Shown here piece after piece: positions 2,713 through 64,000 of a stretch of 64,000 bases of DNA; within the stretch, counting starts at the first letter, position 1, and each line of letters begins with the position of its first letter. The notes beneath the pieces were generated by a model, which made no database searches, was not told where the DNA came from, and worked only from the letters and a program-made list of their open reading frames with translations. Origin of the DNA: an uncultured bacterium (GTDB lineage Bacteria; Bacteroidota; Bacteroidia; Chitinophagales; CAIODY01); the NCBI GenBank assembly GCA_903857255.1, contig CAIODY010000013.1, forward strand, positions 1 to 64,000, written 5' to 3'. A program made the position numbers and the translations under genes.

Positions 2713-5385
2713 TTATCTTACCAAAGTAATATTCCCTTTTATTATCGGATTGTTTTGCATGGGGCAATCTAATTGCACATAATAAACAAACACATCTAAA
2801 GGTTGCAGTTGATTATTAAACATGCCATCCCAACCTTCATTGATATTGGTGGTTTCAAATACTTTTTGCCCCCAACGATTATAGATGCGGAAATATTTTA
2901 TCGTAGCAAAATCAGTAGTTAATAATTTGAACACATCATTTTTTCCATCAGCATTAGGGCTAAAAGCGTTGGGGGCTATTATTGAACCACATAATGCACT
3001 CACAAATACGACCACTGTATCTGTAGCGGTGCAACCAAAGTTGTCATTGCCTGTAACCACATAAGTGGTAGTAGTAATAGGGCTGGCTACTGGATTATTA
3101 ATAACGATGTTGCTCAATGATGGATTACTTTGCCAAATATAATTGGCTGCGCCCGAAGCATGCAATTGTGCTGTGGTGTTTTGTGCAATCAAAGTATCAT
3201 TGCCTGCATTCACAACTACTTTTCGCAGATTGATTTTGAAATGTGTTGAATCAATACACTTTCCATTGGTTTCGATGATGGTATAAGTAGTATTGTTGGT
3301 TGGCGATAATAAAACAGGGTTGCAAATGCCACAATTGATAGTGGGCAGCCAAGTATATTGTGGTGCATTATTCAGCACAATATTTAAGGTTGCACCTGCA
3401 CAAATGGTGGTATCATTCAGCCTTGGGAAAGGAATTTTTCTATCTACTTTTATTTTCACTGAATCATGGCTTTGGCAGCCATTTGCGCCAACAGTTTTTA
3501 CATAAAACGTAGTATTTACACTATCCATAAACCCTACTTGTGAGCAATTATTACACACAATGCCTGCTAACAGATACCAACTGATAATGCCATTGCTATT
3601 GGCAAACAAACTAATCGTATTGCCATAACAAACCTCCGTATCGTTGGATACGGTTAGTGTGGGCAATGGTTTTATATTAATTATCACCGAATCGGTGATA
3701 GCACAACCTGTTATGCCTGCTGTGATATGATATACCTGATTAGAAACCACTTGTGCTAAGGGTTGCAAACAATTACCACAACTCAAGCCTGCGGTTGGAT
3801 TCCAACTGACTGATGCATTGCTATTTGCCGAAAGCCTAATCGTATCGGCTTGGCATACGCTGACTGGCGATACTACCGTTAAAGTAGGCAAGGGCTGAAC
3901 GCTAATGCGGATAGTATCGTGTGCCACACAACTATTTAAGGTGCTACTGATGTAATAATTAGTAGTAGTTGCGCCGCTAAAGTTGGTTTGTGTGCAACCA
4001 TTACAACTAAAGCCATTGGTAGCATTCCAAACCATTGTGCCTATGCTGTTAGCAACCAAATGCACTGTATTACCTGCACAAATAGCCGTATCGTGGTTAG
4101 TAGTGATGTTGGGGAAAAAAGTGTGTGCAGCATCGCAATAATACGATTGATTCACATTGCCAAAATTGGTGAGCAATTGCAAAGTATGTTGCCCCGATGA
4201 ATTATAAGTAATAGTTGGGTTTTGAGTAAATGATATAGGGGCGGTATAGCCCGAAACAGGTATATCAACTCTTACAATTGCACTATCTAAACCATCGAAA
4301 GCAAAAAAATGATACGCATTGTTCGCCCAAAATACATTGCTGGTTTGATTCCAAAACAAATCCCATCCTAACGAAGAAGCATTTAATGAAGTAGTAGTGA
4401 TGGTATTATTAATACTTCCACCTGCAAAATTCAGTTGCAGCACATCTCCCAATAAACCATTATGATTAGATTGATTATTGATAATGCCTATTAATTGATT
4501 ACAAGTTTTAAAAAGTTTTATGGCTCGAGGTCCGTTGACAATATTATTCGGATTGCCAATGGTGGTAACAATGGGTGAATTGTTTAATAAATTTGTTCCA
4601 AAGCTAAGTTTTACTAATGAAGTTGGGATAAGTGTATTGGAAACAAAAACCATGTACCAATTACCATTTTCATTTTCCATTGCAAAGTTGGTGTTCGGAT
4701 TTCCTGTTGAAGTTAGTGTTGTAAGGGTTGGCGTATTAATGATAGATGAACCAAAATCTAATCTTTGAATATTACCATTTCCTCTACAAACTAAAAACCC
4801 CACATAATTGCTACCATTTTTAAAGATATTTAATTGATGTGCCCAATTGCCTAAGGTTACAGCTAATGTACTCACAGTTGGTGTGGTATTAGTGATTGCT
4901 ATACCAAAATCAAGCCTTTCTAAAATACCAGCACCAGTGGTGCCACCATCGGCAATGCCATACCAATTACCGTTTTCTTTTATAAACTCAATATCTTCAT
5001 TATAGCTGCCTGGCAAAACATTAGTAATAATCGCTGAATTAATAGGTGTGGTATTCAAAGGATTAGTTCCTAAATCCCATCTTACTAAATTATTGGATTG
5101 ATATTGTGTAGAAAATAAATAGTAATTGCCTCCATCTTCTACTAACCTGCCGCCGAGCGGATAATTCATAGAATGATTAAAATTGCCTAAATTAACTGAA
5201 GTTATATTGCCATTAATATTCAATGAATCAAAGCTCCAGCAATAAGTTAAAGCATTTTTGCTGCTATCGTGTAGGGTGATGAGGGTATTATTACAAACCG
5301 AATCTTGAAAAGTAAAAAAAGCTTGCGCCCAGCCTTTGCCGCATATCATCATGCCGATAAATAATATAAGCGTAAAGCGTTTCAA
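2713..5385 (-). CDS. Secreted protein: N-terminal beta-propeller-like repeats, Cys-containing Ig-like repeats, gliding motility/T9SS C-terminal domain
   Basis: Signal peptide; repeated 'LDFG..I.NTP..TTL' units; C-terminus IIAPNAFSPNADGKNDVFKLL...FRIYNRWGQKVFETTNINEGWDGMFNNQLQPLDVFVYYVQL...KGNITLVR. Confidence 0.85.
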   Translation of the reverse strand: MKRFTLILFIGMMICGKGWAQAFFTFQDSVCNNTLITLHDSSKNALTYCWSFDSLNINGNITSVNLGNFNHSMNYPLGGRLVEDGGNYYLFSTQYQSNNLVRWDLGTNPLNTTPINSAIITNVLPGSYNEDIEFIKENGNWYGIADGGTTGAGILERLDFGIAITNTTPTVSTLAVTLGNWAHQLNIFKNGSNYVGFLVCRGNGNIQRLDFGSSIINTPTLTTLTSTGNPNTNFAMENENGNWYMVFVSNTLIPTSLVKLSFGTNLLNNSPIVTTIGNPNNIVNGPRAIKLFKTCNQLIGIINNQSNHNGLLGDVLQLNFAGGSINNTITTTSLNASSLGWDLFWNQTSNVFWANNAYHFFAFDGLDSAIVRVDIPVSGYTAPISFTQNPTITYNSSGQHTLQLLTNFGNVNQSYYCDAAHTFFPNITTNHDTAICAGNTVHLVANSIGTMVWNATNGFSCNGCTQTNFSGATTTNYYISSTLNSCVAHDTIRISVQPLPTLTVVSPVSVCQADTIRLSANSNASVSWNPTAGLSCGNCLQPLAQVVSNQVYHITAGITGCAITDSVIINIKPLPTLTVSNDTEVCYGNTISLFANSNGIISWYLLAGIVCNNCSQVGFMDSVNTTFYVKTVGANGCQSHDSVKIKVDRKIPFPRLNDTTICAGATLNIVLNNAPQYTWLPTINCGICNPVLLSPTNNTTYTIIETNGKCIDSTHFKINLRKVVVNAGNDTLIAQNTTAQLHASGAANYIWQSNPSLSNIVINNPVASPITTTTYVVTGNDNFGCTATDTVVVFVSALCGSIIAPNAFSPNADGKNDVFKLLTTDFATIKYFRIYNRWGQKVFETTNINEGWDGMFNNQLQPLDVFVYYVQLDCPMQNNPIIKGNITLVR

Positions 5386-5498
5386 TACTTATTATTTGGT
5401 GATACAAAACTATAAAAAAAATGGATAAAAGACAGATTGTTATCAATGCTTTGAATGGCAAAAAGCGGTTACCAAAATTTTTACCCCATTCTTTTATC

Positions 5499-6455
5499 TT
5501 ACAACACTACCAATGCCCAGCTTCCATCCAGCGTAGCCGATACATTATACACATTCAAATATTGCATCGTGTTTTCATCGCCCAAATCATTCAAGTTGCA
5601 AATAATGGTGTTGTGTGGTGCTACATGCACAAAACTTCCAGTAATTGCCCCATTATATGATGCTGCTAAATAAAATTTCAATTCATCATCGCCATTATTA
5701 CTCAATTTTAATTGCGAATTCACATCCAATTTGCGCTTAATGATATTATGAATAGCCAATGGTTTTAAATTGCTACCTGTAAAATGTGTTTGTACTGCAT
5801 TGCGAAGCGTAGCTTCATCAAAATATTTTGCGCCTTGTTGGGGGTTGGTGCTGAAATGCGTTAATAGGCTACCATAATCAGCCAACATCAGTGCACACAT
5901 ATTAGTAACGGCTGTTTTCATTGCCGCACTCATATTGGTGGTAGTAGTTTTTGAGATGCCTTTTGTACTAAAATTGGTAGTTAAAGTGTTATAATAAGTT
6001 TGAATTGTACCTTTTAAAGTAGTCAAAGCAGCATCAGAGCCTATGGCTGCTAATAAAGCACCCACAGCAGTCATTCGGGCTTGCTGACTGCCTTGTAAAA
6101 AAGGCGAATGCCCATTAGGGAATAAAGCTTTATAACGAGCTGTGCCTTTAGCATAATGTATTTGTGCATTAGCATCCCAAGCGTTTACATTAGTTGTCAT
6201 ATCAGCCAATGCCAAATTAAAAGCTTCTACATCACCCTGCTGCAATTGGTCTTGCCCTTTATTGGCATCATTAGCTGTTAATAATGCTTGATGCACCACA
6301 TTAAATGGCGTATAAAGCCCTAATATAAACGGATTACCTACGCTATCAGCAAATAAAGCATCATGATGAAAAGTGCTGATTTGAATAGCCTTGGGTGCGC
6401 TATTTTCTACTGCATTAAAAAAAATGTTTTCAAACAAACTCCATGGTTGGCTCAT
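5499..6455 (-). CDS. Hypothetical protein, no recognised family
   Basis: 318 aa ORF with ATG start, no obvious signal peptide; Ala/Thr/Asn-rich helical N-terminal part and a possible beta-sandwich tail. Confidence 0.7.
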   Translation of the reverse strand: MSQPWSLFENIFFNAVENSAPKAIQISTFHHDALFADSVGNPFILGLYTPFNVVHQALLTANDANKGQDQLQQGDVEAFNLALADMTTNVNAWDANAQIHYAKGTARYKALFPNGHSPFLQGSQQARMTAVGALLAAIGSDAALTTLKGTIQTYYNTLTTNFSTKGISKTTTTNMSAAMKTAVTNMCALMLADYGSLLTHFSTNPQQGAKYFDEATLRNAVQTHFTGSNLKPLAIHNIIKRKLDVNSQLKLSNNGDDELKFYLAASYNGAITGSFVHVAPHNTIICNLNDLGDENTMQYLNVYNVSATLDGSWALVVL

Positions 6456-6642
6456 AAAAAAAAGATTTAAAGATGAATAAAAATAATTAGTATAAAGGTA
6501 TCATGGCATTATCTCAACGCTATGTTATTACAAAAATAAAAAACAGTTTTTAAATTTCCAAAAAATATTTTTTAATTTATTTTTTACCCAAATTAGCCAT
6601 CCTGATTCAATGCCTTTAGTTTTAGAAATTCTAATTTTTATA

Positions 6643-6881
6643 AATGTTTACGGAAGCAATTTTTTTTAAGAATTACCTCCGTAATGTTTTACGGGTGTAG
6701 TTTTTTTTAAAAATTGCTTCCGTAATGTTTTACGGGTGTAGTTTTTTTTAAAAAGTCTGCCAATAATGTTTTACGGGAGCAATTTTTTTTAAAAAGTCTG
6801 CCAATAATGTTTTACGGGAGCAATTTTTTTTAAAAATTGCTTCCGTAATGTTTTACGAGAGTAGTTTTTTTAAAAAATTGG
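6643..6881. repeat. Array of ~6 tandem 41-bp repeats
   Basis: Units start with aatgtttt-acg at 6643 (40 bp), 6683, 6724, 6765, 6806 and 6847 (degenerate); period is exactly 41 bp from 6683 onward. Confidence 0.95.
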
Positions 6882-6945
6882 ATAAATGAAGAATAGATGG
6901 GCGGATTTTTTTGCAGATGAAAGAAAAGTAATCCTCAAAATTTAA

Positions 6946-7674
6946 TTATTTTTTTCCCATCGCAAAAATAGAAGAGCCGATAAATGATTTGGGCAATAAA
7001 TAATATTCAGCCACAAATAACCAAGCTAATAGTTTATGAACATGAATCATTTTGCCCTTAGGGGCTTTTACTTGTACATTTCTTTTGAGCGAAAGTTTGT
7101 TAAATAATAAAGCAGGAAAATAAAGCGAATGAAAAAAGTATTGGTTTTGAATTACTGTGATGCCAGCAGCAGTTAAAGTATCATGCAATGTTTTTAAATC
7201 GTAGCGGCGATAATGCCCAAAAAATTCATCGTAATTGCTCCAAATTTCTTGCCTTGCAGGCACAGTGATGATAATATTTTTTAGATTAGGATATTTATTT
7301 AAGATAGATTGAACAAACTCAATAGGTTGTTCAATATGTTCAATTACATCTAATAAAAGCAAAGTGGTGAAATGTTCACGAAAATAAATGGGCATATTTA
7401 AAGCATCTTGCCCAATGATGATTTGATGAGGGGCAATGCCTTCAACCGTTTGTACATTCGATAGCTCAACGCCCTTGCATTCCATTCCATGTTGGTTTAA
7501 ATATTTTACTACAATGCCCCTGCCGCAGCCAATTTCAAGAATGGCATCTGTAATGCCCAATTGCTTCAATTTTTTATACAGCAAAAAGTTTCGAGCCTTG
7601 GTCCAATAAAAATTTTCTAAACCAATTGGGTAATTGGCATCAAATTGTTCGGTAGTGTAGTTAGTAGTTACCAT
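6946..7674 (-). CDS. Class I SAM-dependent methyltransferase
   Basis: ILEIGCGRGIVVKYLNQHGMECKGVELS; LLLDVIEHIEQP. Confidence 0.9.
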   Translation of the reverse strand: MVTTNYTTEQFDANYPIGLENFYWTKARNFLLYKKLKQLGITDAILEIGCGRGIVVKYLNQHGMECKGVELSNVQTVEGIAPHQIIIGQDALNMPIYFREHFTTLLLLDVIEHIEQPIEFVQSILNKYPNLKNIIITVPARQEIWSNYDEFFGHYRRYDLKTLHDTLTAAGITVIQNQYFFHSLYFPALLFNKLSLKRNVQVKAPKGKMIHVHKLLAWLFVAEYYLLPKSFIGSSIFAMGKK

Positions 7675-7732
7675 TTTGTTTCAGACTTCAAAGTAAATGA
7701 AAAGTTATAATTCAGTGATGAAAAAAAACCAA

Positions 7733-9319
7733 CTATTTTAATTGCAAATGTATCAATTGGGTTTGCGATTGGTGGCATACTGATTGAATGAAAATAAAAC
7801 TGTATGCTGGTTTTTGCACGGAAGGCAAAATTTGAATAAAATTAGTAGCATCGTTTTCATACACATAGTTAGTCATGTAAAAATGAAATTTCATAGGCTC
7901 AATTTTATCCAAAGTATGTTTTAAATCAGTGGTCATTTTATCACGAGTGTTCATACAGCAATATACCTCTTTGCCAGTAATTTGTTTCATGAAATAATTG
8001 TATTCGTAGCTGGTAAAATAATTATTGCCAATCGGTTTAGTTTGGTCATCAAATACTAATGTTTTGTGCATGGTATTCAAAGGCAATTGTTTCAATGCGG
8101 TCATCAATTGCTTGCTTTTTTCAAACCGATAGTTCCAAATAAAATAATTGTAAGTAGAGCAAATACAAAACACCACCAATATTATTTTTAAAACCAAAAC
8201 AGGCTTTCCGAGCCTTAAAAATTTTGAAAGGCTTACTAATAATATAGCCACAGGCAAGCTGACTAAAATAGCATTTCGGGCATCATAATTTAAAGCACTG
8301 GCTGGTTTGTTCACCAAGCAATAGGGGAATAAGGCAGCCAATAATATTAACACTGCCACAATCACTTGCCCAATCACAACAGTAATTTTAAATGTAGCAG
8401 TCGGCGTAGTTAATTTATCATGGTCAATTTTAAATCGGCTCATCAACCCTATCATGCCTGCACCGATTATTATAATGGTCATCAATGCCCCTACCCTATC
8501 GCCCATCATAGCTTTTATAAACAATAAAGGCAAGCTGATAAATAATTTAAAAAATGAAAAGCCAAAATTATAAGCCAACATTTTGATGGTGGCAAAACCT
8601 TCAAATTTTATTTGATTGTATTGCTTAAAATAAGGGTCAATTGGAAAAAAACGATTCCACAACACATAAATAATTACGGGAAAAATAAAAAGAACAATAT
8701 TTTTTTTGATAAAAGATACAAGCTGTTCAAAAATAGAAATTTGATGGCTATAATTTTTCAAAAACAAAACACCTAAAAAAACATACACAAAAATGTAAAA
8801 CGATTGCAACTCAAATGAAATAGCAAACAACATCAAAGCTGCTATCAGCCACAAATCAATTACCCTTGTTTGCTTTATATAGTTAATGTAGCAAACACAA
8901 GCTAATAGAAATAATAAATAACTAAATGGGGCAGTAATGGCAATCATTTCAAACCAAATACCATAAAAAGGTGCTGCAATAGTTAAAGCAGCAATAAAAA
9001 AATTATCAGTTGAAGAAAAGAAATTGAAATAGTTTAAAAGTTTGTAAACAAGGCTTGCAATACCCCAAATGATAAAAACAGAAATAATTTTAAACGTAAT
9101 AATGTAGTTTGGCAGCGATGCTAAAAATTCAAGCACATAAATGGTTACTCTGCGCCCAGTAACATAGTAGCAATCTTTCATCATATCAAAACTACCTGTC
9201 TGCACAGCATTTACAACCAAATACGAATCCCACATCAGCATTTTTGAAAAAATCATCACGCCGTGCGCCAGCAAAGTGATAAGAAAAAGATGGAAGTAGA
9301 TTCTTTGGTGCTTAGGCAT
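7733..9319 (-). CDS. Polytopic membrane protein, GtrII/glucosyltransferase-like
   Basis: 528 aa with ~10 or more hydrophobic segments; general layout of GtrII-like/GT-C membrane proteins. Confidence 0.55.
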   Translation of the reverse strand: MPKHQRIYFHLFLITLLAHGVMIFSKMLMWDSYLVVNAVQTGSFDMMKDCYYVTGRRVTIYVLEFLASLPNYIITFKIISVFIIWGIASLVYKLLNYFNFFSSTDNFFIAALTIAAPFYGIWFEMIAITAPFSYLLFLLACVCYINYIKQTRVIDLWLIAALMLFAISFELQSFYIFVYVFLGVLFLKNYSHQISIFEQLVSFIKKNIVLFIFPVIIYVLWNRFFPIDPYFKQYNQIKFEGFATIKMLAYNFGFSFFKLFISLPLLFIKAMMGDRVGALMTIIIIGAGMIGLMSRFKIDHDKLTTPTATFKITVVIGQVIVAVLILLAALFPYCLVNKPASALNYDARNAILVSLPVAILLVSLSKFLRLGKPVLVLKIILVVFCICSTYNYFIWNYRFEKSKQLMTALKQLPLNTMHKTLVFDDQTKPIGNNYFTSYEYNYFMKQITGKEVYCCMNTRDKMTTDLKHTLDKIEPMKFHFYMTNYVYENDATNFIQILPSVQKPAYSFIFIQSVCHQSQTQLIHLQLK

Positions 9320-53957: not shown

Positions 53958-54057
53958 TACTAAATAAAAAAATATTAACCCCAAAAGCAACATTTTTCGT
54001 TTATTTATTATCTTGTAATAGTAGATAACCTTGAATAACAACTTTATTAAACTAATC

Positions 54058-57000
54058 ATGAAAAAAAATTTCTTTCTTTTTTTTCTTCTCTTTTTAAATC
54101 TTAGTCTTTTAATCACTCATTCGTTAAAAGCGCAAGCACCTGTTGCCAACTTTAGTTGTACGGCATCTTTCGCATTGCCGAAGGATAGTTGCTATCCGAT
54201 GCAGCTAACATTTAACAACACCACAACTGGTGTTTACGATTCAGCCAATTGGTATTTGGATGTGAGCAGCACAGGCTGTAACGGACCATGGACAGGCTAT
54301 TTGCATCAAACTAAATCAGGCGTAAATTCACACCAAGATTATACAGCTTTGCTGGTTACACCCAATTTTTACCGCTTGTGTTTAAGAGTTGCGAATAGTG
54401 CTACTGGGCAGGTAAACACTTATTGCCAGTGTATTGGGCGAATTTTCCCGACAGTACAACCTGGGTTTGTAGTAGGGACACCTATTGGCTGCGGACAGGT
54501 AACTACAAACATTTATGCCACTAATCCTGGAACTGTACCACCTTATACTTTTATTTGGTATTTAGGTGCATGCGGTAGCACAATAACAACAACATGCAAT
54601 GGCATTCCGAGTGCAACATCTGGTAATGTTTCTGCATCGTGCCCATGCCTTAATACTACCAAACCATGCTATGGTATTTTTTGTTTGATAACAGATGCCA
54701 ATGGCTGCCAGGCAGTTGCCTCTGATTCATGTGCTGTAAAAGCATATTGTAACCCTACTGCTTCTATTTCAGTAGCCGCTAGTGCAAGCACTTGTGTAAC
54801 AGGACAACCAGTAACCATGACCGCTTCGCCAACAGGCATGACAAAATATAGTTGGTGGGTTCCTGCTGCTTCAGGAGCACCTACAAACGGACCATTACGA
54901 ACAAATACCTTGACAACAAGTTTTCCCAGTTTTGGATGTTATGATGTTAAACTCTTAGTGTATGATTCATTAACCCCATCCATTGGTTGTGTTGATTCAG
55001 CCATACTACCTAATGCAGTTTGTTTACAAGGTATTCAAACCACTTCGCCAGTTCCAAGTTTTTCAGTATCGCCTAATTTAGTATGTTGTGGTTCACCATT
55101 TCAAGTATCGTTTACTGCACAAACCAACCCAACCAGCAGTTGCTGCATTCAAGCCAGTTTTAGTGCTGTACCAGTTGCTGGTTCGCCAGCTTGTGCTACA
55201 ACGGTGAATTTAGGTACAGTTCAATCGTGTAATGGATTACCAGGCACACAGTTTTTTTCAATTCCATGTCGTTGCAGCAGTGCAGTAACTTATAAAATTG
55301 TGATGGACCCAGTAATTACAAATATGTGTAGCAACTGTACAGCAACAGTAAGTTCAAACCCAATTAATGTTGTTGTAAACCCAGCACCAGTTGCAAGCAT
55401 ATCATTGATGAATGGCTATGTTTCCAGCTATTGTGCACCCTGCCATAAATTTGGTTTTCAAGCTGGTACTAATGTTTCAAATTTACCTGGATATACTTGG
55501 GAATGGCATAACAACTCAACTTGTTCGCCACCCAATGCTTCAACAACTTCAACAGATACAGTAACCTTTTGCGGAAATGGCACTGTGGCATCACCTTCGC
55601 AACAACATTTTGTATGTTTGAAAATTTGCCAAAGTGTTGCTAATGGCGGCTGCTGCTCTTATGCTAATGATACTGTAACTTTAACCAAACCTTATGGCGA
55701 TTTTACTTACAATGCTCCATTGGGTTGCGGAATAGTTTGCGATTCATTTAAAGCAACTGTTAAAACTGATAGTTTATATAAATGGATAGTGTGGGATGCT
55801 AACGGCGTAACCGCAACTATTCAGACTGGCGTAAATGCTTACAAATTTGCACATTGCTTTACAGGCTTTCCTAATAAGGATACCTGCTACAATGTGATGT
55901 TGGTACATACCACATATTCCAATGGTGGCGTGGCTTGTTTCGATACCATCTTGAAAAAGAAAATTATCCGCGTTGGGCATCATGTAACAGCAGCAGCGAC
56001 TTTATCAAAAACACAGCTTTGTTTGAAACATGCCACAGTGTACACTTATCCAACTGCTTGTTTGAAATTTATTCCCGACAATCAAAGCATGCAAATTATT
56101 CCAAGCCCAACTGTGCAATTAAGCCAGTGTTCTAATATTTCGTGCAATTATTATTTTACCAAGCAGGTGGGTAATACGCAACAAATAGTTGCGCAATCCT
56201 ACAATTGTGATACGCCTACTGTTTGCTTTACTCAAACAGGTAATTATACAGCTCATTTCATAGTAACTGATAATGCTTGTACCGATACACTTACTTTGCC
56301 TACACAAGTTTGTGTAAGTGGTATAATTGCCGATATTGTTGATTCAGTACATTGTGCCAATCAGGGTAATTATACACCAATAGTTACTTACAAACCATCA
56401 TTGAAATTTTATGCTTGCAATGGCTTGCCTAATTTGGATTCTTTTAAAGTACACATTTGGAATAAAAGCACTAATACAAATATCTTAGACACCACTATTG
56501 ATACAATGGGTAAGCTTCCGCCCCGAATCAATTATACCTATTCAAGTGGTGGTACATATTTAGTTTGTATGTCAGTATATGATAAGTTCCATGCCATTTG
56601 CGATACAGATACTATTTGTAAAAACGTATTGGTATTTCCATTTACCGCTGTTATTAATTTAGTGAATAGTCAGCCTACTATTGCATGTCGTGATTTTAAT
56701 AGCAATCGTTGGGTATTTACTGCCAACCAATCATCGCCTGCCAATCCACCCATTTCGAAATGGGTTTGGGGCGACGGCACACCCAATACTCTAAATACCG
56801 ACCCAGCAACACACACATTTGATACTTGTGGTATTTTTCAAGTCAAGCTTACCATTTCAAGTGCGTCAGGTGCTTGCCAAGATTCGGCACACTTCACAGT
56901 GCAAGTGCATGATATACAAGATTCGAGTGGGAAACACAATAATTTATTCAGTATAAAACCTTTAAGCGGTAGCTGTAATCGTTGTTTAACATTTAAGAAC

Positions 57001-60000
57001 AAAGCTGTTTATTGCCATACAGCACTCGATTCGGTAGTCATTGATTTTGGTGATGGCTCTCCAAAAGCAGTAATACATGGTTCGTGGGATTCAACTGTGC
57101 ATTGCTATACAAAAACCACCAATATTTATCCAACAGTTACTTACCACGATATTTATGGCTGCGTTGTTTCAAAAACAGTAGCAGCACCACAAATGACGGG
57201 CATTACAGCCAATTTTACTGGCTTGCCCGATACTGTATTGTGTGTAGGTACGTGTGTAACTTTAACTGATGCATCAGCAGGGTATGTATATTATTATAAA
57301 TGGAGTTTGAGTAGTGCTGGTTGTGCTACTCATCCATATGTTGATAGTAGCAATGTTAGTACATTCCCCCCACCTGCTCAATCGTATTGCTATACTTTTA
57401 GTCAGCCTGGTGTTTATTATTTAGATTTTAACCCAAGCAATTTTTATACCGACCCAACCACTGGTCATCATTGTCAATCGGATACTTGTGTAAGAATTGA
57501 TGTTAAAAATACGGTTGCTGATTTTTATATTGCTGATACATTTCCATGCCCAGGCAATGTTGTTAATGTTCCCAATTTAACTACTGGTGCTTATGACCAT
57601 TTGGTAGTAACGTTAACCTTACCTAATAGTTCTGTCGTAACTTATACCTATGATAAATATGTTCCACCAAGTTTACCGCCTTATGTTTCAATCCCATTGG
57701 GTTATCCAGGTAATTATAGTTTGAGTTTTTACGCAAGCAGTACATTAGGATGTAATTCTACTAAATCTAAAACATTTGTAGTGCAAGGTCCGTTAGGTGC
57801 ATTTCATGCTTTATCTCGGCATATATGTTTGGGTGGTACAATAAATTTTGTAGATACTACCAATTCATCAAATGGCGTATTGGTAGATTGGGATGGTGAT
57901 GGCACTGACCAATATCCTTATGATTCAACACATGTTTATAATTTTTCGCACCAGTTTATGTCGTGTGGGAAAAAACAAGTTTTGGCATATATTTCTGATG
58001 GTAATTGTATTTATCCAATTTCAGATACCGTGAATGTTGATTGCCCAAAAGCGCAATTTGCAAAGGCTTTATCAACTACTGATTTTTGCGGTTCGGCATC
58101 AGTGCAATTGAATGATTTATCATTAAGCTCATCGCCACACGTTTATGGAACAACAATTACATCGCATTTGTGGCAATTGATAGATACCAATAATTTAGTA
58201 GTGCAAACTTCTGTTGCAGTGAATCCTGTGTTTAATATTCATCAAGATGGTTCGTATGCAGTGAAACTGACTATTCAAACTAACTGGGGATGCATTGATA
58301 GTACCATTCAGCGCAGCATCATTCATATTTACAAATACGCAACGCCACAATTTACTATTTCGCCTGATACTATTTGTATCAACGGTTGTATCAATTTTGC
58401 CAACACTTCTATCAATCCAGATACAGGTGCATTGCATAGCCGATGGTATTTTAATTGGTCAACAAATACATTAACAAGCAACTTAAATACACCGCAACAA
58501 TGTTATACAACTGCTGGTACTTTTAATGTTGTATTGATTGATACCACCATGCATGGTTGTGTGGATACCAGTGCTGCAAAAACGGTGTTGGTATTGCCTT
58601 CTATTACACCCAACTTCAGCATTAGCGATACCATGCTGTGCGGCTCAAACAAAAAAGTTGTTGCATTTACAAATACATCAATTCCGTTGGCAGGATTAAA
58701 TTATTGTTGGAATTTCGGTGATTCATTGCAAGGCGTTTGTCAATCAACTGCTGTGAATCCATCACACACTTTCCAATTACCAACAGGCGTTGCCAGCGCA
58801 TGTTATACAATTAAATTGATTGTAAAAAATAGTGTTGGTTGTGAAGATAGTATTTCAAAAAGAATTTGCTTGTACAGCAATCCGATAGCAAAATTAATTC
58901 CTGACCATAGCGAAGCTTGTCATCCATTAAAAGTTGAGGTAAACGATTCTTCATCAAGTTTAAACCCTATAACCGCATACGATTTGCATTGGGGTGATGG
59001 TTCGGATACGACCATATTCCCAAGCGGAATAACACATGCTTATGCAGATACTGGTACTTACTTTATTCATTATAAAATTACGACACAACAAGGCTGTAGC
59101 GATTCGGTTACAATTGCTGTTATTGACCATGCTTATCCAATTCCATGTGCTGGTAAAGATGATACAATCTGTGCACAACAACAATTGACATTAGGTTGTC
59201 CCTCATTACCAATGAGTGGATACAATTATAGCTGGAGTACCTTGACAAATGTAGGAACACCATTTAGTTTTATAGCGCATCCTGTCATTACTGCATTCAA
59301 TAATGAAAGTTATATTTTAACAATGGTAAGTACAGGTTATGCTTGCCCAGCTTGGGATACAATGAATGTTACCGTTATTCCATTAGTAGTTCCAAGCACC
59401 AGCAATGATGCCGCAGTTTGTTTAGGCTATTGTGCTACACTTTCAGCATCGGGTGGTTTAACCTATTCATGGACTGATTCTTCCAATCATGTGATTTCAA
59501 CTGATTCTGTAATCACTGTTTGTCCATCATCACCAACTAAATACAATGTAACAATTTGCGGAAAATGCGATTGCCAAACTTTATCCATCAATGTTGATGT
59601 GTTTACACCACCAGCAATTATTTTAGAGCATAGCATTAGTGGCGACAATATCATTGCTGGGCATGATATTACCATTCCGCCTGTCATCAGCCCTGGTACT
59701 GGTTCGGTAGTTTGGAGACCAAATTATAATTTCAACAATAATGATACGACTAACGCAAGCCCAACAGTTCATCCTGATGTAACTACCACTTATCATGTGT
59801 ATGTGACGGATGGTCATGGTTGTGTTGATTCATCGGATGTAACTATTCATGTGTTGTGTAATTCATCAAATGCTATTTATGTTCCAAATGCGTTTACACC
59901 AGAAACTCCTGGCGCACAAGGCGGACACAATGATAGATTTTATGTACAAGGAAAAGGTGTAAAAGAGATTAACTACTTTAGAATTTACGACCGTTGGGGT

Positions 60001-60174
60001 GGAATAGTTTATAGTGCCGAACATATTCAAATCAATGACCCATCGGTTGGTTGGGACGGTACTTCAACCAATGGAAAACCTTTGAGCAGCGATGTGTTTA
60101 TGTATCAAATGCAAGTGCAGTGCTCCGAAGGAACGGTGTTTCCATTAACTGGCACATTCACTTTGATAAGATAA
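54058..60174 (+). CDS. Giant Cys-rich PKD-domain surface protein with gliding motility/T9SS C-terminal domain (~2038 aa)
   Basis: ATG 54058 gives a classical signal peptide (MKKNFFLFFLLFLNLSLLITHSLKAQA); track start is a TTG at 54031. C-term IYVPNAFTPETPGAQGGHNDRFYV...FRIYDRWGGIVYSAEHIQINDPSVGWDGTSTNGKPLSSDVFMYQMQVQCSEGTVFPLTGTFTLIR. Confidence 0.88.
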   Translation: MKKNFFLFFLLFLNLSLLITHSLKAQAPVANFSCTASFALPKDSCYPMQLTFNNTTTGVYDSANWYLDVSSTGCNGPWTGYLHQTKSGVNSHQDYTALLVTPNFYRLCLRVANSATGQVNTYCQCIGRIFPTVQPGFVVGTPIGCGQVTTNIYATNPGTVPPYTFIWYLGACGSTITTTCNGIPSATSGNVSASCPCLNTTKPCYGIFCLITDANGCQAVASDSCAVKAYCNPTASISVAASASTCVTGQPVTMTASPTGMTKYSWWVPAASGAPTNGPLRTNTLTTSFPSFGCYDVKLLVYDSLTPSIGCVDSAILPNAVCLQGIQTTSPVPSFSVSPNLVCCGSPFQVSFTAQTNPTSSCCIQASFSAVPVAGSPACATTVNLGTVQSCNGLPGTQFFSIPCRCSSAVTYKIVMDPVITNMCSNCTATVSSNPINVVVNPAPVASISLMNGYVSSYCAPCHKFGFQAGTNVSNLPGYTWEWHNNSTCSPPNASTTSTDTVTFCGNGTVASPSQQHFVCLKICQSVANGGCCSYANDTVTLTKPYGDFTYNAPLGCGIVCDSFKATVKTDSLYKWIVWDANGVTATIQTGVNAYKFAHCFTGFPNKDTCYNVMLVHTTYSNGGVACFDTILKKKIIRVGHHVTAAATLSKTQLCLKHATVYTYPTACLKFIPDNQSMQIIPSPTVQLSQCSNISCNYYFTKQVGNTQQIVAQSYNCDTPTVCFTQTGNYTAHFIVTDNACTDTLTLPTQVCVSGIIADIVDSVHCANQGNYTPIVTYKPSLKFYACNGLPNLDSFKVHIWNKSTNTNILDTTIDTMGKLPPRINYTYSSGGTYLVCMSVYDKFHAICDTDTICKNVLVFPFTAVINLVNSQPTIACRDFNSNRWVFTANQSSPANPPISKWVWGDGTPNTLNTDPATHTFDTCGIFQVKLTISSASGACQDSAHFTVQVHDIQDSSGKHNNLFSIKPLSGSCNRCLTFKNKAVYCHTALDSVVIDFGDGSPKAVIHGSWDSTVHCYTKTTNIYPTVTYHDIYGCVVSKTVAAPQMTGITANFTGLPDTVLCVGTCVTLTDASAGYVYYYKWSLSSAGCATHPYVDSSNVSTFPPPAQSYCYTFSQPGVYYLDFNPSNFYTDPTTGHHCQSDTCVRIDVKNTVADFYIADTFPCPGNVVNVPNLTTGAYDHLVVTLTLPNSSVVTYTYDKYVPPSLPPYVSIPLGYPGNYSLSFYASSTLGCNSTKSKTFVVQGPLGAFHALSRHICLGGTINFVDTTNSSNGVLVDWDGDGTDQYPYDSTHVYNFSHQFMSCGKKQVLAYISDGNCIYPISDTVNVDCPKAQFAKALSTTDFCGSASVQLNDLSLSSSPHVYGTTITSHLWQLIDTNNLVVQTSVAVNPVFNIHQDGSYAVKLTIQTNWGCIDSTIQRSIIHIYKYATPQFTISPDTICINGCINFANTSINPDTGALHSRWYFNWSTNTLTSNLNTPQQCYTTAGTFNVVLIDTTMHGCVDTSAAKTVLVLPSITPNFSISDTMLCGSNKKVVAFTNTSIPLAGLNYCWNFGDSLQGVCQSTAVNPSHTFQLPTGVASACYTIKLIVKNSVGCEDSISKRICLYSNPIAKLIPDHSEACHPLKVEVNDSSSSLNPITAYDLHWGDGSDTTIFPSGITHAYADTGTYFIHYKITTQQGCSDSVTIAVIDHAYPIPCAGKDDTICAQQQLTLGCPSLPMSGYNYSWSTLTNVGTPFSFIAHPVITAFNNESYILTMVSTGYACPAWDTMNVTVIPLVVPSTSNDAAVCLGYCATLSASGGLTYSWTDSSNHVISTDSVITVCPSSPTKYNVTICGKCDCQTLSINVDVFTPPAIILEHSISGDNIIAGHDITIPPVISPGTGSVVWRPNYNFNNNDTTNASPTVHPDVTTTYHVYVTDGHGCVDSSDVTIHVLCNSSNAIYVPNAFTPETPGAQGGHNDRFYVQGKGVKEINYFRIYDRWGGIVYSAEHIQINDPSVGWDGTSTNGKPLSSDVFMYQMQVQCSEGTVFPLTGTFTLIR

Positions 60175-61272: not shown

Positions 61273-62664
61273 ATGAATTTTACGCTAAAAAATAAAGTGC
61301 GAATTGTAACAGCCGCTTCATTGTTTGATGGGCATGATGCTGCCATAAATATTATGCGCCGAATTATGCAAGCCAAAGGTGCTGAAGTAATTCATTTGGG
61401 ACATAATAGAAGTGCCGCTGATATTGTGGATTGCGCCATACAAGAGGATGCACAGGGCATTGCGATTACTTCGTATCAAGGTGGACATGTTGAATTTTTC
61501 AAGTACATTTTTGATTTGTTGAAAGAAAAAAATTGCAGCCACATCAAAATATTTGGTGGCGGCGGCGGAACAATTTTACCAACCGAAATTGAAGAACTGC
61601 ATCAATACGGCATTTGCAGAATTTATTCGCCTGATGATGGGCGAAAAATGGGCTTGGAAGGCATGATTGAAGATGTGGTGAAGCAATGCGATTTTTCAAC
61701 AATTGACAATTTGCAATTAGCAAATATCAATGAAACGTTGCAAAAAAAAGATGAAAAAACGATTGCTCAATTAATTACTGCTGCTGAAAATGGTAAATCA
61801 ATAAATCTTCAAATCAACAAATCAACAATTCCTGTTCTCGGCATCACAGGCACTGGCGGTGCAGGAAAATCAAGCGTTACAGACGAAATTGTGAGGAGAT
61901 TTTTAAATCGTTTTTCAGATAAAACCATAGCTGTTATTTCTGTTGACCCATCGAAAAAGAAAACCGGTGGTGCATTGTTGGGTGATAGAATCAGAATGAA
62001 TTCGATTCACAATCCACGAGCATATATGCGTTCGTTAGCTACTCGTGATAGCGAAGTGGCTTTAAGTGCTCATGTGCAGGAAGCGATTGATGTTTGCAAA
62101 GCTGCCGCATTTGATTTCGTAATTTTAGAAAGTGCTGGCGTTGGGCAAAGCGATGCTTCGATTTTAGAATATGTAAATGTGAGCTTGTATGTAATGACGC
62201 CTGAATACGGCGCTGCATCACAATTAGAGAAAATCAACATGCTAGATTATGCCGATGTAATTGCTATCAATAAATTTGATAAAGCTGGTGCATTAGATTC
62301 ATTGCACGATGTAAAAAAACAATACAAACGCAACCATAATTTATTCACCGCTAAAGATGAAGACTTGCCAATTGTGGGCACCATTGCTTCTCAGTTTAAT
62401 GACACTGGCGTAAACCAATTGTTTGAATTATTGGTGGATGCGGTTGAGAAAAAATGCAGTGTTGATTGGGGACGAACTGATACTCATCACGAAAAAAACA
62501 CCGCAACAAAATCACAAATTATTCCACCAGCAAGAGTTCGTTATTTGGCTGAAATAGCTGAAACTATTGAACGCTACGATGATTGGGCGAAAGAACAAAC
62601 CGACATTGCTACGAAAATGTATCAATTGAATGGTGCAATTAACATCATGAACTCTAAACATTAA
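61273..62664 (+). CDS. IcmF-like B12-binding domain + MeaB-type G-domain protein lacking the mutase domain
   Basis: [99 protein letters not shown]; stops after [43 protein letters not shown]. Confidence 0.88.
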
Positions 62665-62669
62665 TTCAA

Positions 62670-63794
62670 ATGGAAAATCAAATCAAAAACTTGCACATTG
62701 AAAATTTTAAATCCATTAAGAATATGGATTTGGAATGCAGTAGAATTAATATTTTTATTGGTGAGCCCAATGTTGGGAAGAGCAATATTTTAGAGGCTAT
62801 GGCTTTGCTTTCGCCACTTTATTCCAACCAAAATCAAATAACGAACGAAAAATTCTTGAGTGAATTTATTAGGTATGAATCAATAAGAAATATTTTCTAC
62901 GACATGGATGTTCAACAAAAAATTGTTGTAGAAACTGATAAGTCATTTGCCTTAGTAAGATACCAAACCAATAATATTAATTCAGCAGAATTTTTTGTTG
63001 GTTTCCAAAACTGGGTAAAAGAATTATTCAATGAATCCTTATCGGAAAACCTTCAAAATGTGCAACATCGATTTGAAGATTTGCAACGTGAAAATTTTAG
63101 TTTATTGCTTGATAGTAAAAACGTTTCGCCATTTGAACAGCTTTATTTTTCTACATCTACTGACGGAAAACTTCATCAACACAATCTTTCATTGAATTCA
63201 AACAACCCAATTAAAAAATATCATTTTGTAAAAAACATTTCAACCCAAAATCAATTTCCACTATTTCTAACTCCGAATGGAGATAATCTTTATAGAATTG
63301 TTAGGTATAATGAATCAGTACAAGAATTTGCGATTGACTTTTTTGAAAGACAAAAACTTGATTTTTTATTCAATGATGAGAAACTAAGTTTTGAACCATC
63401 AAAAGTTTTAAAAAGAATTAAGACAGTTCTGCCATATACATTAATGGCGGATACTTTTCAAAGAATGCTTTTTTATATGGCTGCAATAAAATCCAATAAA
63501 AATTCTGTTTTAATTTTTGAAGAACCAGAAGTGCATTCGTTTCCTGAATATGTTTCTATGCTTTCAAAGGAAATTTCAAAAGATTTATCCAATCAATATT
63601 TTATTGCAACACATAGCCCATTCTTGTTAAATGGAATTTTGGAAAATGCTTCAATGGATGATGTAAATGTCTTTGTATGCTATTATGAAAACTATGAAAC
63701 AAAACAACGTTTACTTTCAAAGGAACAACTTTCAGAATTACTAAATTATGGGGTAAATATTTTCACAAACATCAATTCTTATTTGAATGATTAG
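62670..63794 (+). CDS. AAA-family ATPase (OLD/ABC-type, AAA_15/AAA_21-like)
   Basis: IKNLHIENFKSIKNMDLECSRINIFIGEPNVGKSNILEAMALLSPL (Walker A); SVLIFEEPEVHSFPEYVSML (Walker B); QYFIATHSPFLLNGIL (switch His). Confidence 0.9.
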   Translation: MENQIKNLHIENFKSIKNMDLECSRINIFIGEPNVGKSNILEAMALLSPLYSNQNQITNEKFLSEFIRYESIRNIFYDMDVQQKIVVETDKSFALVRYQTNNINSAEFFVGFQNWVKELFNESLSENLQNVQHRFEDLQRENFSLLLDSKNVSPFEQLYFSTSTDGKLHQHNLSLNSNNPIKKYHFVKNISTQNQFPLFLTPNGDNLYRIVRYNESVQEFAIDFFERQKLDFLFNDEKLSFEPSKVLKRIKTVLPYTLMADTFQRMLFYMAAIKSNKNSVLIFEEPEVHSFPEYVSMLSKEISKDLSNQYFIATHSPFLLNGILENASMDDVNVFVCYYENYETKQRLLSKEQLSELLNYGVNIFTNINSYLND

Positions 63795-64000
63795 TCTGCT
63801 TAACATTCTACCTGAATGTGAGGCAGATACTCGGGTAGTAAATATAATAATGGAAATTAAACAAAGCGTTCGACATCGTGGAGGAATTAATGAAGTCGTA
63901 GAACCTTTGAAAAATCAAAAATCATTTTTGTTCAATGATTCTGCTTTGGCAATTGTGGATGAAGATAAACTTCCAAACAACAAGCGTAAATCAAATTATC
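63787..64000 (+). CDS. Toprim-like protein N-terminus, partner of the AAA ATPase (3' truncated by window)
   Basis: MISLLNILPECEADTRVVNIIMEIKQSVRHRGGINEVVEPLKNQKSFLFNDSALAIVDEDKLPNNKRKSNY...: 8-nt overlap with the ATPase; ECEAD followed by AIVDEDK resembles the Toprim E and DxD motifs. Confidence 0.55.
   Translation, partial: MISLLNILPECEADTRVVNIIMEIKQSVRHRGGINEVVEPLKNQKSFLFNDSALAIVDEDKLPNNKRKSNY

Follow-up and report, generated by a model that had tools for sequence, protein, structure and literature searches.

Searches for defense genes usually concentrate on islands, prophages, and plasmids. In PARIS, a phage anti-restriction protein is the trigger and the effector cuts host tRNA. Of the systems closest to the locus described here, PARIS also occurs as separate genes (PMC10568477), and it is described as working as a toxin held by its ATPase (PMC12409363, PMC11455837); the archaeal OLD ATPase Cran1 is reported to have a role in cell-cycle progression (PMC12796447). 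In the C. metallidurans IcmF enzyme, a linker following the G domain joins it to the rest of the protein (PMC10481361).

The locus lies at the end of the window, the whole stretch of 64,000 nucleotides analyzed, which covers the opening 64 kb of a 97,657-bp contig from a 2.97-Mb draft genome of 134 contigs (G000). It is composed of an ATPase gene and a small partner gene, and the pair interrupts a core enzyme gene, that of IcmF, exactly at the linker that connects the GTPase domain to the mutase domain (Table 1). The interrupted IcmF gene with its exchangeable cargo is the surprising part, and it lies outside the span first reported.

Table 1. Features of the interrupted IcmF locus (window positions unless marked as contig positions)
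Feature	Position	Strand	Basis
IcmF N-terminal half, B12-binding and MeaB-type G domain, 463 aa	61273..62664	+	NF045497, Pfam
Left flank, probable recombination tract; N half switches from own-genus to f9 split-IcmF likeness	62534..62664	+	Identity comparison
RecF/OLD/AbiLi-type ABC ATPase, 374 aa	62670..63794	+	Pfam, PADLOC, structure model
Walker A GEPNVGKS, residues 31-38	62760..62783	+	Sequence; G36, K37, S38, N39 invariant in 45 relatives
Walker B VLIFEEPE, residues 280-287	63507..63530	+	E284, E285, E287 invariant in 45 relatives
His switch H315	63612..63614	+	Invariant in 45 relatives
DUF4276-like/Toprim-motif partner, putative metal-dependent nuclease	63787..64000 in window	+	Invariant E, DxD; hhalign DUF4276
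Partner ECEAD motif, E10 and D14; E10 candidate catalytic Glu	63814..63828	+	70 relatives
Partner DxD, DED (D58, D60)	63958..63966	+	Both Asp invariant in 70 relatives
IcmF C half, 642-aa mutase, downstream of partner	contig 64342-66270		NF045497 over rest of model

The ATPase and its partner

The ATPase belongs to the OLD/RecF-type ABC ATPase superfamily; it has an ABC head fold, and the Walker A motif, Walker B motif, and His switch that the earlier note had read in it, with a catalytic Glu in Walker B, are borne out by their invariance among 45 relatives. It matches Pfam AAA_15 (3e-15) and AAA_21 (1.4e-9), both above cut-off, and its top PADLOC match is AbiLi (1.3e-19, full length), with further matches to PDC-M38A, ATPase-Toprim, AriAB, HEC-01A, and GajA. 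The Foldseek PDB neighbors of its structure model (pLDDT 90.7) include the Retron Eco8 OLD protein, Rad50, PtuA, and GajA, with E values of about 1e-11.

The 8-nt overlap reported earlier between the ATPase and partner reading frames holds, and extension of the contig past position 64000 shows that the partner ends at contig position 64335, beyond the window, and is complete at 182 aa; it is thus short by nature, and not merely at the window edge. Its residues E10, D58, and D60 occupy columns that are invariant across 70 aligned partners, and within the ECxxD motif this invariant Glu is accompanied by a Cys and a first Asp that each reach at least 90% conservation. This motif is present in 66/71 partners, and the canonical Toprim EGxxD in 5/71. 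The window partner matches no Pfam, NCBIfam, or PADLOC family, and neither it nor its 70 relatives match AriB or DUF4435. Single-sequence matches of the partners to Pfam DUF4276 are below cut-off; a profile of the 70 partners, however, aligns end to end (163 columns) with locally collected DUF4276 proteins with an hhalign probability of 92.9 (E 3.7e-7), compared to 0.1 to 0.3 for the shuffled control. DUF4276 aligns with OLD-Toprim (hhalign probability 80.5), and one ORF in genome G006 is matched by both DUF4276 and OLD-like_TOPRIM; directly compared with OLD-Toprim, the partner profile gives a nonsignificant probability of 1.4.

The partner of a close relative (L093) weakly matches HEC-01B (0.005) and DUF4276 (0.037), and its model (pLDDT 96) has the order strand-Glu-helix followed later by strand-DxD, with the Glu after strand 7-11, the DxD at the end of strand 52-58, and only one bridge residue at the place expected for the second Toprim strand. 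Foldseek searches with the confident partner model yielded nothing in PDB or BFVD at E <= 0.001, although the ATPase, as a control, did find matches; a Toprim fold is not confirmed. The Toprim-like partner of the earlier note is borne out in its invariant Glu/DxD triad, with the Toprim fold putative. We regard it as a DUF4276-like, Toprim-motif protein (Glu after strand 1, DxD after a later strand), whose apparent link to Toprim runs through DUF4276.

The partner alignment is too diverse for scanning the genome collection and the ATPase alignment was used instead, giving 365 ATPase relatives in a profile search of GTDB genomes; the best 80 of these loci were kept for pair analysis. In at least 71 of the 80, a partner of 150-190 aa with the pattern E-[C/G]-x-x-[D/E] ... 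DxD lies directly downstream. The two are separate ORFs in the window and at the homologous loci, coupled by ATGA or 8-nt overlaps, and they are a constant two-gene family, not chance ORFs. This widespread family of an ATPase with an ECxxD partner appears to be uncharacterized. In G006 (L043:1296-2968), another AAA ATPase, which also has a partner (162 aa), lies shortly upstream of the homologous pair.

An IcmF gene interrupted at its linker

The gene preceding the ATPase matches NF045497 (fused isobutyryl-CoA mutase IcmF) over profile positions 1-466 (1.1e-199), as well as Pfam B12-binding (1.4e-15) and MeaB (2.3e-40), and ends at a stop codon of its own, 5 nt ahead of the first codon of the ATPase. 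Together with the half downstream of the partner it covers NF045497, and the B12, G, and mutase domains are all present over two ORFs. IcmF runs as one unbroken frame across the linker in G001 and G002, which are of the same genus, and in G003, which is of the same family, and 45/61 relatives score above the fused-IcmF cut-off of this profile. No other IcmF copy is present in G000; a second fused IcmF covering for the split one was considered and rejected, as only mutase-like paralogs were found. With spacings of 5, -8, and 6 nt from N half through ATPase and partner to C half, the four genes probably form a single translational run, and the cassette is probably expressed with IcmF.

An assembly chimera within a metagenome bin would be a trivial explanation, and the 134-contig state of the draft invites it. 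We consider it extremely improbable, however, as both IcmF halves lie on one 97-kb contig and match the same genus (85-94% nucleotide identity to G001 and G002), the junctions have clean stop and start codons, and a like arrangement is found in G495, G527, G032, G505, and G480. An artefactual split of IcmF was likewise rejected, given the several genomes sharing the arrangement and the clean junctions.

Two further genes near the locus were noted. A 234-aa ORF without a Pfam or NCBIfam match follows the IcmF C half (L003:6283-6987; contig 66282-66986), and window positions 54031-60174 encode a 2047-aa PKD-like secreted protein with a C-terminal domain that looks, by eye, to be of the gliding-motility/T9SS type.

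Recurrent cargo at the IcmF linker

A second family (f9) was sampled with 30 genomes, and its split IcmF genes differ in what they carry. G495 has the same ATPase and partner module at the linker; G527 has HEC-02A and HEC-02B (PADLOC 3e-85 and 3e-24); G032 has YhcG/DUF1016 (PADLOC PDC-S02); and G505 has YhcG/PDC-S02 together with a 104-aa ATPase remnant that has a broken Walker A and is 51% identical to the G495 ATPase (PDC-S02 scores 1e-136 and 1e-134 in G032 and G505). The cargo in G480 is a 599-aa SWIM-domain protein, IcmF of G526 is split with no cargo at the linker, and the remaining members have IcmF fused or its halves at separate loci. An IcmF mutase tree requires no fewer than 5-6 changes to account for the split state, and it places G495 as sister to the fused G509, and G032 and G000 within fused clades.

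At the level of the phylum most IcmF genes are fused, and split forms are found in three distant families (f43, f45, and f48). The f45 inserts (L197-L199, L205, L208, L211; named by eye) are either a heavy-metal protein or a conserved lipoprotein that looks like DUF4397, the latter alone or together with a CopA-like ATPase, and the f45 genome G199 has a split IcmF with nothing between the halves. Because f45 carries lipoprotein and CopA cargo, we rejected a defense-only use of the site: the IcmF linker is a recurrent landing site that is permissive for whole genes generally, and it is in the window's order, judging from few genomes, that defense candidates dominate. In a genome of another family (L036:4620-6989, G017), the reading frame continues at the linker from the IcmF G domain into a DUF559 nuclease domain, with masked repeats beyond it, and PPQPP-type repeat expansions are present at the same linker in G510 and G486. 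In family f4 (L066, L067, L063; G041, G053), IcmF is broken elsewhere, at profile position ~408, and its halves lie kilobases from each other or on separate contigs.

A clue as to how the cassette reached IcmF comes from its left flank. Across aa 1-420, the N half of G000 plainly resembles its own genus (aa 376-420, own 0.93-0.97 versus 0.47-0.63), and at aa 406-450 its best match is G495 (0.93/0.77, versus 0.83/0.67 to its own family). Nucleotide identity at the N-half tail likewise passes from an own-genus to an f9 pattern, at the point where the amino acids do, and own-genus identity of the C half returns after ~180 nt. Among 36 lineages, the cassettes of G000 and G495 group as sisters, with support of 95/67 that is not full, and because they are only 40% identical, their shared ancestry is either old or the donor is unsampled. 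FastTree separated the two cassettes and a better model joined them, and we therefore do not claim that they were inserted independently. Target-site duplications and terminal inverted repeats were also considered, and the 8-nt direct and 6-nt inverted matches at the insert were taken as chance.

The simplest reading that these identity comparisons suggest, from a short tract, is that recombination in the conserved IcmF flanks exchanged the original linker for one carrying the cassette. With the insertion at the linker, IcmF is made as two proteins, which presumably assemble; homologous recombination in IcmF appears to be the way in which cassettes spread, together with the linker sequence that flanks them. 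We only tentatively extend this to a dedicated exchange site, in which the conserved halves act as recombination arms and defense cassettes are swapped between families while the enzyme works as two proteins. It is possible, although we doubt it, that the cassette arrived by ordinary random insertion into the linker and that the f9-like flank is a convergent change in the freed protein ends. The flank is short (~45 aa), a similar tail is present in all split forms and could be selected, and unrelated lineages hold other cargo types at the linker; nonetheless, this reading fits poorly with a switch of both nucleotide and amino acid likeness to f9 at one place and with the sister relationship of the G000 and G495 cassettes.

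Function of the pair and comparison with known systems

Pair-carrying hosts are mostly Bacteroidota, and also include Chlorobi, methanogenic and methane-oxidizing archaea, Thermococci, and others; none of the viral contigs searched, and almost no plasmids, carried the pair. Its distribution is patchy, being present in 10/396 genomes of the phylum and in 2/61 relatives, and not in the sister species. In Spirosomaceae-type genomes it has a fixed, vertically conserved synteny beside an epimerase gene: at 12 loci (L111, L113, L114, L118, L121, L126, L134, L137, L144, L145, L148, L158) it overlaps the NAD-epimerase gene by 20-26 nt, most of them with a metG-like gene adjacent on the opposite strand. 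At L108 (~4,900-7,800) the pair lies between murD- and ftsW-like genes (by eye) in a cell-wall/division cluster, with gaps of 16 and 8 nt, and in a Thermochlorobacteriaceae genome (L127 and L085) it overlaps the apparent start of mnmE (tRNA modification; by eye).

We favor, with moderate confidence, the reading that the pair is a two-gene ATP-gated nuclease cassette lodged in the IcmF linker, most likely for phage defense. The OLD/RecF-type ATPase probably dimerizes and would sense or bind an infection signal or nucleic acid, and the partner Glu and DxD would hold metal ions for cleavage. This reading draws on the constant pairing, the invariant motifs, and the likeness of the ATPase to defense ATPases by both profile and fold, and on the presence of other defense candidates (HEC-02, YhcG/PDC-S02) at the same linker. 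Another supporting point is the likeness of the partner to DUF4276, which in turn aligns with OLD-Toprim. The reading is weakened by the fixed Spirosomaceae synteny and the murD/ftsW and mnmE settings, which are unlike those of a fast-turnover defense gene. Also counting against it are the empty Foldseek result and nonsignificant direct OLD-Toprim comparison for the partner, the scarcity of the pair on viral contigs and plasmids, and the f45 cargo, which is not of defense type. The earlier note's expectation of a defense-island or variable context is accordingly upheld for the variable, defense-type cargo at the IcmF linker, but not for the fixed synteny and housekeeping neighbors elsewhere.

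Those same settings, namely the vertical synteny with an overlapping epimerase gene at the 12 Spirosomaceae-type loci and the murD-module-ftsW and module-mnmE arrangements, would suit a housekeeping ATPase-nuclease for DNA or RNA maintenance whose operon position is ordinary gene order, as would its carriage by many archaea and bacteria but not by viral contigs, and the reported cell-cycle role of Cran1. We think such a role unlikely, as the distribution is so patchy even among close relatives, the IcmF site is common to PADLOC-listed defense candidates, and one copy (G505) is decaying. It is similarly improbable that the pair is a selfish, toxin-antitoxin-like element, with a toxic nuclease restrained by the ATPase and shielded from deletion inside a needed enzyme gene. 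The tight coupling of the two reading frames, the ATPase-held toxin described for PARIS, and the difficulty of clean loss from inside IcmF are consistent with this, but cassettes do get lost, as illustrated by the split, cargo-free IcmF of G526 and the dead remnant in G505.

The location has broader consequences. Several unrelated candidate defense systems reside inside one core enzyme gene, where island-based searches would miss them, and our literature search for gene-within-gene defense insertion, or for descriptions of HEC or PDC, found nothing relevant. The IcmF site offers natural comparisons among fused genes, split genes without cargo, split genes with cargo, and a split gene whose cargo is decaying, making it testable whether the enzyme functions with its chaperone domain as a separate protein, and whether defense cassettes travel via conserved gene flanks without a mobile element.

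Among candidate systems in PADLOC, HEC-01 is similar in having two genes, an AAA_15/21-type ATPase and a small partner, and the ATPase matches HEC-01A (8.4e-16); it differs in that the partner is far under a confident family score, with ECxxD rather than EGxxD in 66/71. AbiL provides the best PADLOC match of the ATPase, AbiLi, but no AbiLii model matches the partner. With PARIS and OLD the pair shares an ABC ATPase and a putative Toprim-type effector, and AriA, GajA, and the Retron Eco8 OLD protein are among the sequence or fold neighbors of the ATPase; the ATPase matches are partial, however, and the protein is compact at 374 aa. The partner is not detectably AriB/DUF4435, and unlike the OLD nucleases (classes 1-3), ATPase and partner are on separate chains and not fused, with no Toprim domain recognizable by sequence in the partner. 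The split OLD/PARIS-like pair of the earlier note therefore survives as an OLD/RecF-type ATPase and a Toprim-motif partner encoded by two genes, and the sequence comparisons do not support PARIS or OLD membership, the apparent relative of the partner being DUF4276. As for the host enzyme, the break in G000 is at the same linker as that described for C. metallidurans IcmF (PMC10481361), but in G000 the enzyme is made as two polypeptides whose genes are separated by a foreign insert of two genes.
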